Assembly (NCBI GenBank): GCA_002783205.1 | Contig: PFEY01000086.1 | Span: 1 to 59,494, forward strand | DNA: 59,494 nucleotides | DNA from: Rhodobacteraceae bacterium CG17_big_fil_post_rev_8_21_14_2_50_63_15 | GTDB taxonomy: Bacteria; Pseudomonadota; Alphaproteobacteria; Rhodobacterales; Rhodobacteraceae | Reading direction: 5' to 3' | Part shown: piece by piece, positions 32,771-34,932 of the stretch | Numbering within the stretch: position 1 is the first letter of the stretch | Layout of the letters: every line of letters begins with the position of its first letter | Notes under the pieces: model-generated | Databases searched by the model: none | Told to the model about the DNA's origin: nothing | What the model saw: only the letters and a program-made list of their open reading frames with translations | Program-made: the position numbers and the translations under genes

Positions 32771-34075
32771 TCAGGCCGCCGCTGCGCGCGCGCTGCCGCC
32801 GCCACCCGACCTGCGCCGCCGGTTGCCGGGCTTGCTCTGCGGCTTGCCGCCGCCAAACCCGCCCCCGAAACCACCGCCACCACCGCGCCGCTGCGGGCCG
32901 CCGCGCCCGCCCGCGGGTTTGGCCGCCTTGGGATCGGGCAGGACCTCCCACGGATGGCCCGAGGCCACCGGGATCGTGGTGCCCAGCACCTTCTGGATGT
33001 CCTTCAATTCACCCATCTCGTCGGGCGCACAAAAGGCAATCGCCGCGCCGTCGCGTCCGGCGCGCGCGGTGCGGCCGATCCGGTGGACATAATTGTCGGG
33101 CACATTGGGCAATTCGTAGTTGTAGACATGTTTGACATCCGGGATGTCGAGGCCGCGCGCCGCGACGTCGGTGGCGACCAGCACCTTGACCCGCCCGTCG
33201 CGAAAGGCCTGAAGCGCGCGCTCGCGCTGGCCCTGGCTCTTGTTGCCGTGAATCGCCGCCACCGCAAAGCCCGCCTGTTCGAGCCGCCGGGCGAGCTTGT
33301 CCGACCCATGCTTGGTGCGTCCAAAGACCAGCGCCAGTTCGGCCTTGTGCTTGCCCAGAAGTTCGATCAACAGATCGGGCTTGGCCGCCTTGGCGATGAA
33401 ATGCACCTCTTGGGTCACATTGTCGGCAGCCTTGCCCGGAGGGCTCACGGCGACGCGTTTGGGATGGCGCAGGTAGGCGCCGGCAATCTCTTCCATCTGT
33501 TTCGGCATGGTGGCCGAAAAGAGCATGGTCTGCCGTTCGGCCGGGATCAGCCCCGCAATCCGGCGCAAGGCGTGGATAAAGCCCAGATCGAGCATCTGAT
33601 CGGCCTCGTCAAGCACCAGAAAGCGTGCGGCATCAAGGCGCACGGCACGGCGGTCAATGAGATCGAGAAGACGGCCCGGCGTTGCGACCAGAATGTCGAT
33701 GCCCCGGTCAAGCTGCTTGATCTGGGGATTGATCGAGGCGCCCCCCACCACGACACCGATCTTGATCGGCGTGTCGCGGACCAGCGGCAGGAGTGCATCG
33801 CGGATCTGTCCCGCAAGTTCCCGCGTGGGCGCGAGGATCAGGCTGCGCACGGTTTTCGGCGCGGGACGGCCCGCATCCTCCATCAGCCGCGTGATCAGCG
33901 GCAGGCCAAAGGCCATGGTCTTGCCGGTGCCGGTCTGCGCCAGCCCGATCACGTCAAATCCGTTGAGCGCATGTGGGATCGCATGGGTCTGGATCGGGGT
34001 CGGCTCGCTGATGCCCTGAGCACCAAGTTTGCGCACGAGGACGGCCGGCAGGCCCATTTCGTCAAATAAGTTCAA
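32771..34075 (-). CDS. DEAD-box ATP-dependent RNA helicase
   Basis: This 434-aa helicase has Q motif PTPIQ, motif I AQTGTGKT (46-53), DEAD (156-159), SAT (187-189), and motif VI HRIGRTARAG in order. The C-terminal tail from about residue 395 is Gly/Arg-rich (GGRGGPQRRGGGGGFGGG), as in RNA-binding RGG tails of RhlE-type helicases. The start is the TTG at 34075, with AAGGA 6 nt upstream; an ATG at 34057 is an alternative. A long leader with a promoter, a small upstream ORF and hairpins precedes it, suggesting post-transcriptional control such as cold induction. Confidence 0.92.
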   Translation of the reverse strand: MNLFDEMGLPAVLVRKLGAQGISEPTPIQTHAIPHALNGFDVIGLAQTGTGKTMAFGLPLITRLMEDAGRPAPKTVRSLILAPTRELAGQIRDALLPLVRDTPIKIGVVVGGASINPQIKQLDRGIDILVATPGRLLDLIDRRAVRLDAARFLVLDEADQMLDLGFIHALRRIAGLIPAERQTMLFSATMPKQMEEIAGAYLRHPKRVAVSPPGKAADNVTQEVHFIAKAAKPDLLIELLGKHKAELALVFGRTKHGSDKLARRLEQAGFAVAAIHGNKSQGQRERALQAFRDGRVKVLVATDVAARGLDIPDVKHVYNYELPNVPDNYVHRIGRTARAGRDGAAIAFCAPDEMGELKDIQKVLGTTIPVASGHPWEVLPDPKAAKPAGGRGGPQRRGGGGGFGGGFGGGKPQSKPGNRRRRSGGGGSARAAAA

Positions 34076-34123
34076 ACTCTTTCCTTTCGGGGAAATCGGC
34101 CCGCAGGCCCGCACCCCATGACA

Positions 34124-34142
34124 GGCGGTGACAATCACCGCC
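34124..34142 (-). promoter_or_regulatory. Perfect hairpin in the helicase leader
   Basis: GGCGGTGA-CAA-TCACCGCC gives an 8-bp stem with a 3-nt loop. On the helicase strand it overlaps the stop codon of the small upstream ORF, so a ribosome ending there would disrupt the stem. No T-run follows, so it is not a plain terminator. Confidence 0.6.
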
Positions 34143-34248
34143 CGGTCGTCGTGGTTGCACCTGCGACAGACAGGAGACCGAATGCCCCCAGCTCCGACAG
34201 GTGTTTGGCCCCACGCGTGATCTTGGGAACAGGTCCGCGACGTTTCAT
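34135..34248 (-). CDS. Possible 37-residue upstream ORF in the helicase leader
   Basis: The ORF runs from ATG at 34248 to TGA at 34137-34135 and encodes MKRRGPVPKITRGAKHLSEL followed by GAFGLLSVAGATTTTGR. A GGGGCGA precedes the ATG by about 5 nt. It lies wholly inside the presumed leader and its stop codon lies in the perfect hairpin. The N-terminal half is basic. I do not recognise the peptide. It could be a regulatory upstream ORF, a small protein, or chance. Confidence 0.35.
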   Translation of the reverse strand: MKRRGPVPKITRGAKHLSELGAFGLLSVAGATTTTGR

Positions 34249-34304
34249 AAGGATCGCCCCACAGGGCAGTGCTGCTCACGCGGCAGGAAACATCGGTTAG
34301 GGTG

Positions 34305-34333
34305 CATATGGACAGTGCCGCCGCACAAGTCAA
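34305..34333 (-). promoter_or_regulatory. Sigma-70-type promoter for the helicase gene
   Basis: On the minus strand, TTGACT (34333-34328) is followed after exactly 17 bp by CATATG (34310-34305), a good -35/-10 pair. Transcription would start near 34298, about 220 nt before the helicase TTG start. Confidence 0.65.
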
Positions 34334-34398
34334 GCGCGCGGTTGGTTCGATTGTCGGCAAATACTCTCGCTTTGCAAGGTGAGCGCGGCCTGCGCCGA

Positions 34399-34932
34399 TC
34401 AGCGGGCCGCCGCAATCGCGGGCAGGATCGTGCTGTCCAACACCCTTTGGGTGATCGGTCCCGCAAAGCGCAGAACAATGTTTCCCTTGCCATCAATGAC
34501 ATAGGTTTCCGGCACGCCGTAGACCCCCCAGTTCAGCGCCATCCGTCCCTCTGCATCGGCACCCAGAGCAGTATAGGGGTTCCCCAACTCTTTCAGAAAG
34601 CCCAGAGCATTGTCGGGCTTGTCCTTGTAATTCACCCCATAGATCGTCACCCCATCCGCCGCCAGTTGCGCCAGATTGGGATGTTCGACCCGGCAGGGCG
34701 CGCACCAGCTTGCCCAGTAGTTGACCAGCTTCACTTCCCCGGTGCGCAGATCGCTGTCGGAGAACAGCATCGACTCGCCAAGCGGTGTGATCTGAACCGC
34801 CGGAGCGGGCTTGCCCGCCAGAGCAGAGGGCAGCTCATCGGGGTTCTCGCGTTGCAACCCAACCAGGGCCAACCCGGCGAATCCGGCGAAGATCACCAAA
34901 GGTGCCAGCATCAAGGGGGAGAGTTTAGCCAT
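34399..34932 (-). CDS. ccmG: Cytochrome c biogenesis thiol:disulfide oxidoreductase
   Basis: CcmG (DsbE) is a membrane-anchored periplasmic thioredoxin-like protein that reduces apocytochrome c before haem attachment. The 177-aa protein has an N-terminal anchor (about 5-25) and the active site NYWASWCAPCRVEHP with Cys77 and Cys80, then GVNYKDKPDNALGFL and the cis-Pro segment GVPETYVID. It overlaps ccmD by 8 nt. It is the last gene of a ccmA-B-C-D-G operon on the minus strand. Confidence 0.95.
   Translation of the reverse strand: MAKLSPLMLAPLVIFAGFAGLALVGLQRENPDELPSALAGKPAPAVQITPLGESMLFSDSDLRTGEVKLVNYWASWCAPCRVEHPNLAQLAADGVTIYGVNYKDKPDNALGFLKELGNPYTALGADAEGRMALNWGVYGVPETYVIDGKGNIVLRFAGPITQRVLDSTILPAIAAAR

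Follow-up and report, generated by a model that had tools for sequence, protein, structure and literature searches.

In E. coli, the 5' UTR of rne acts as a sensor of the RNA enzyme that this gene encodes. This UTR, which is named in the accessible part of PMC10989929, belongs to another gene than the one considered here, and our leader has no Rfam match, rne leaders included. For helicase genes, the closest reported counterpart is rhlE of Caulobacter crescentus, which carries a 186-nt 5' UTR; expression from its translational fusion increases strongly at 10 °C, transcriptional fusions are more active when RhlE is absent, and the UTR is needed for full expression (PMC5472812, available sections). 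An alphaproteobacterial RhlE gene is here preceded by a long leader, with post-transcriptional cold induction and evidence of negative autoregulation by RhlE, but the available sections of PMC5472812 describe no conserved structure, and the likeness to the locus described here rests on description, not on sequence. The RNA helicase encoded by crhR of Synechocystis likewise adjusts its own expression to temperature, but the organism belongs to another phylum, and neither "UTR" nor "untranslated" occurs in the text of PMC3485376 as far as it was available. The SAM/SAH, HRC-8-4, and uORFC-8-2 motifs are order-specific leader or intergenic RNAs of the Rhodobacterales that were likewise found by comparison, but they adjoin metK, cco, and cysS genes, and the accessible portions of PMC2864571 and PMC8632094 hold no passage on a DEAD-box gene. 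We found no description of the present leader in the open-access literature, where it may figure as an unnamed entry in supplementary motif lists. Rfam 15 at the gathering cut-off returned only a tRNA in the window (the whole 59,494-nt stretch analyzed) and no family at the leader, and a permissive Rfam search of 33950-34420 gave a single chance hit on the other strand.

The locus in the window resembles Caulobacter rhlE in that a long 5' UTR, predicted at 223 nt from a transcript start near 34298 to the start codon, lies before an RhlE-type gene, for which the best NCBIfam model is RhlE at 441.5 bits, below the model cut-off of 743. The preliminary description had proposed a distant promoter, a leader of about 220 nt before a DEAD-box gene, and a weak TTG start, and all three stand: the promoter TTGACT-17-CATATG is present at 34333-34305, the Pfam DEAD and Helicase_C domains are confirmed, and the TTG codon lies at 34075-34073 on the minus strand (Table 1). 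A promoter with a spacer of exactly 17 nt was found in 176 of the 206 leaders holding GCGTGA and not found in the other 30, and a strict promoter-consensus scan listed no site at the helicase leader. Across the aligned relatives both promoter boxes are preserved, with a variable spacer sequence between them, and the leader is kept from AACCGA to about CCACGACG, whereas the section with the 8-bp hairpin varies; leader length in relatives has a median of 231 nt (166 leaders). Among 211 leaders, the codon at the expected place is TTG in 95, ATG in 69, GTG in 23, and another in 24, so that TTG is the commonest start of this gene, consistent with deliberately weak translation. Judged by the pattern-found relatives and by helicase identity (88.9% to L098 of Roseovarius mucosus and 89.9% to L182 of a Roseovarius sp.), the window is placed near Roseovarius. 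Its genome holds 15 DEAD-family matches and one copy of the leader.

Table 1. Features of the helicase gene and its leader (positions in the window)
Feature	Position	Strand	Remarks
RhlE-type DEAD-box RNA helicase	32771-34075	-	434 aa, TTG start; Pfam DEAD and Helicase_C over cut-off
Ribosome-binding site GAAAGGA	34082-34088	-	sequence and alignment of relatives
P7, 8-bp hairpin GGCGGTGA-TTG-TCACCGCC	34124-34142	-	perfect; poorly conserved
P4 3' strand CCACG	34150-34154	-	moderate support
P5	34158-34203	-	CACCTG 34203-34198 with CAGGTG 34163-34158; encloses P6; subgroup covariation
P6	34188-34185 with 34177-34174	-	inside P5
hp3, CCCA-AGATCACGCG-TGGG	34210-34227	-	both-side changes in 2/4 pairs
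P4 5' strand CGTGG	34211-34215	-	moderate support; overlaps hp3 and kissing strand
3' kissing strand TCACGCG	34214-34220	-	complement of hp1 loop; 6-bp core widely kept
P1 3' strand GAAACGTCG	34238-34246	-	covariation, 56 distinct sequences
hp2, GCCC-TGTG-GGGC	34256-34267	-	variable arm inside P1
hp1, CTGC-CGCGTGA-GCAG	34272-34286	-	near-invariant; 5' kissing strand in the loop, 34282-34276
P1 5' strand CGATGTTTC	34287-34295	-	pairs with 34238-34246
-10 box CATATG	34305-34310	-	17-nt spacer from TTGACT; kept in relatives
-35 box TTGACT	34328-34333	-	conserved CTTGACTT in alignment of relatives

The leader is widespread in the family and strictly placed. A BLASTN search with the leader at E up to 0.01 hit 67 of the 84 genus genomes; among the weakest of these hits, some are short alignments to other places. 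A covariance model built from 34299-34205 (R1) matched 66 of these 84 genomes and 87 of 295 sampled family genomes. A second covariance model (R2) matched 130 of 295 sampled Rhodobacteraceae genomes, 138 of 244 genomes in an order sample (all Rhodobacteraceae among the matches listed), and five of 289 in a class sample, of which three are Rhodobacteraceae, one (G455) is real, and one (G503) is false; L200 and L214 are false positives of the model. The helicase lies directly downstream in 19 of 20 weak R2 hits that were fetched. Model negatives mostly reflect insensitivity of the model: the helicase is present in 29 of 30 model-negative genomes, and both hexamers occur in order in 23 of 29 model-negative leaders by eye (13 and 12 by script counts). 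A pattern scan of GTDB contigs returned at least 117 stretches, from Rhodobacterales among the matches listed. As would be expected of a cis-regulatory leader, the element holds a constant position upstream of one gene: the helicase is directly downstream in all 59 model-found loci, window included, and lies 109-166 nt downstream in 115 of 117 pattern-found stretches among the matches listed, while the remaining two extend past the end of the fetched piece. A helicase orthologue also follows the leader directly in the 19 best relatives, and in genome G155, which carries the helicase twice, each copy has a leader of its own (L201 and L202). From this arrangement, the leader very probably acts in cis on the helicase. 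Among 29 fetched alphaproteobacterial helicase loci besides the window, the element was seen only at L278 and L279, which lie outside the family and have 61-63% helicase identity, and it was not convincingly seen at those class-level loci where helicase identity is 55% or less. Three class-level loci (L291, L298, and L299) were rejected as carriers, both hexamers co-occurring there by chance without the right context. Some Rhodobacteraceae helicase orthologues are without the element (L225, L226, L234, and L277), L226 having a promoter immediately before the gene.

A conserved complex RNA, missed by the preliminary description, occupies 34299-34150 on the minus strand. Its stems carry the compensatory changes of a cis-regulatory leader: among 56 distinct sequences, both sides have changed in eight of nine pairs of P1, in two of four pairs of hp3 (A-U to C-G in five sequences and C-G to U-A in one), and in one of four pairs of hp1. 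In a larger set of 205 leaders, the third pair of hp1 changes from U-A to C-G in six and to A-U in two, and the fourth from C-G to G-C in two, to A-U in two, and to U-A in one. The variable arm hp2 is paired in 82.5% of cells of an alignment that is misaligned there, and P5 and P6 show both-side changes within subgroups of relatives. The covariation score over the 59 model matches (56 distinct), in an alignment that was fitted to the model and so favors it, is 0.260, compared with 0.114 (sd 0.007) in shuffles, none of 500 being as high, and with at most 0.068 in slid versions. These comparisons make it almost certain that the leader holds a conserved RNA structure. The single-sequence fold of the leader was no better than those of shuffles (z -0.67; 50 of 200 at least as good). 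Although the RNA as a whole covaries, the covarying stems differ from those first named, which were a perfect 8-bp hairpin and a masking of the ribosome site by TTTCC pairing with GGAAA. The hairpin is present (P7) and exceeds shuffles of its stretch (8 bp versus a mean of 4.4), but it is little conserved, a perfect hairpin of at least 7 bp occurring in only four of 20 aligned relatives (the window, L003, L004, and L005) and its columns being missing from seven of the 20 rows. Similarly, TTTCC (34095-34091) and GGAAA (34084-34080) both exist on the minus strand, but the pair is private to the window (one of 20 rows). The hairpin and the TTTCC/GGAAA pair are the least conserved parts of the leader.

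The fold would include a loop-loop contact: CGCGUGA in the loop of hp1 and UCACGCG in that of hp3 are complementary. Of 211 distinct leaders, most of them motif-chosen, 203 hold the 6-bp core of this complementarity exactly, against 0.35 expected after shuffling; two more (L202 and L215) keep it through G-U, and it is missing from L225, L226, L229, and L234. Since the pairs are almost invariant, covariation is hardly able to test them, and double compensation was seen in no leader apart from the doubtful L227 and L228. In these two hp1 is absent, and TTGCGC in an hp3-like loop closed by CCAC/GTGG has a possible partner in a 5' GCGCAG or GTGCAG; this may be a doubly compensated kissing helix or a chance match. 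Invariant complementarity on this scale makes a kissing contact between the hp1 and hp3 loops probable.

The 3' kissing strand and hp3 also overlap a further helix, P4, and since P4 shares bases with hp3 the leader may be bistable. Runs of P4 of at least 5 bp occur in 111 of 204 leaders versus 55.4 in shuffles, whereas runs of at least 7 bp occur in none of the 204 versus 3.0 in shuffles. CCAC is carried by 77 of 154 leaders whose 5' strand is GUGG versus three of 31 in which it is AGG; AACCYU, which is not among the sequences listed for the GUGG class, occurs in 11 of the 31 AGG-class leaders. With kinship left in, pairing with the downstream windows of the own class rather than of other classes is better for GUGG (4.51 versus 3.84) and AGG (4.81 versus 4.28), but no better for the small classes GAGG (3.50 versus 3.69) and GGG (4.10 versus 4.38). 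In one subgroup all 26 of 26 pairs form, a count that is circular because the subgroup was picked for the P4 3' strand. Nested energies at 37 °C, the kissing term not counted, differ little, at -99.9 kcal/mol with hp3 and -104.6 kcal/mol with P4. Taken from these comparisons, the reality of P4 is held with moderate confidence, and we regard a switch between hp3 and P4 as evenly balanced between true and false. The leader showed no direct route by which hp3 or P4 could act on the ribosome site.

The best explanation, to which we give about an even chance, is a cis-acting structured mRNA leader that gives cold- and helicase-responsive control of the helicase. Post-transcriptional control had been suggested at the outset as the likeliest purpose of the leader, and we judge that suggestion right as far as function may be inferred. 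Transcription would start near 34298, and the 5' domain would fold as P1 around hp1 and the variable arm, with the hp1 loop kissing the hp3 loop. The GUGGGG that closes hp3 could instead pair downstream as P4, giving two competing states, a step with moderate support. Cold, or scarcity of free helicase, would change the balance of the P4 state against the kissing/hp3 state, and with it make the helicase mRNA better translated or more stable; abundant helicase would unwind the leader back, as negative feedback, on the pattern of Caulobacter rhlE. Control by cold or by the helicase through the leader is proposed because Caulobacter rhlE behaves in this way in the accessible sections of PMC5472812, and whether this is the signal here is, on that analogy, a matter of equal chances. 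The fold is well supported, whereas for the mechanism beyond fold and place we infer. A bolder reading, which we put forward tentatively and think rather unlikely, is that the leader represents a previously undescribed Rhodobacterales RNA class sensing RNA-unwinding capacity, in which the kissing fold would itself be a helicase substrate whose opening and closing flips hp3 into P4 and so sets helicase translation. If true, the leader would measure free helicase, or cold-stabilized RNA structure, and not a metabolite. RNA folding, RNA decay, and growth at low temperature all require DEAD-box helicases, yet how bacteria sense the need for helicase is poorly known; the leader would provide a concrete, testable sensor with a defined fold conserved across a large, mostly marine group and add a new entry to RNA-family libraries.

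The most durable of the alternatives is that the leader is a site for another RNA-binding protein or RNase E, setting mRNA stability. The effect of the Caulobacter rhlE 5' UTR, which raises transcriptional fusions and was read as mRNA stabilization in the available part of PMC5472812, would agree with this, but no known protein motif was identified in the leader, and we consider this reading unlikely. A metabolite-binding riboswitch with the invariant loops as ligand pocket would account for the very high conservation of unpaired and tertiary bases and for a possible two-state design; however, the sole gene found behind the leader encodes an RNA helicase and not a metabolite enzyme or transporter, which leaves this explanation quite improbable. 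A small RNA cut from the leader and acting in trans would suit an element with its own promoter and a compact fold, but the strict linkage to the helicase gene and the lack of a conserved terminator make it very improbable; no intrinsic terminator was found in the region, a run of five T occurring in only 18 of 205 leaders. That a conserved 37-codon frame upstream of the gene (34248-34135) works by attenuation is scarcely credible, for although 126 leaders hold a closed ATG frame of at least 10 codons, the peptide of the window matches one of 295 family genomes, its own, and no Pfam family, ruling it out as a conserved peptide. Equally hard to credit is a DNA-level element, for instance a site for a regulator at CACGCGTG, a palindrome that does not vary in the genus alignment: P1 covaries as RNA, and in 34 of 205 leaders the palindrome is lost (TCACGC followed by A) while the complement of the hp1 loop and the kissing core are unchanged, and a core that stays while adjoining bases change makes a palindromic site in DNA, or a protein motif in repeated copies, less likely.

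A candidate mimicry of 16S rRNA by hp1, over an 11-base likeness, was rejected: the 11-mer occurs five times in the genome's own assembly, which may lack rRNA, and as the four places outside the window have no Rfam match nearby, the idea found no support. Besides G155, three genomes (G726, G740, and G782) carry two model matches apiece. Upstream of the helicase in the window lies a thioredoxin-like gene (34399-34932), which was not found at that place in the 19 other aligned relatives. Finally, ahead of the TTG the helicase frame runs on for 95 codons without a stop (34076-34360), so that gene callers may set the protein start too early and thereby hide the leader.
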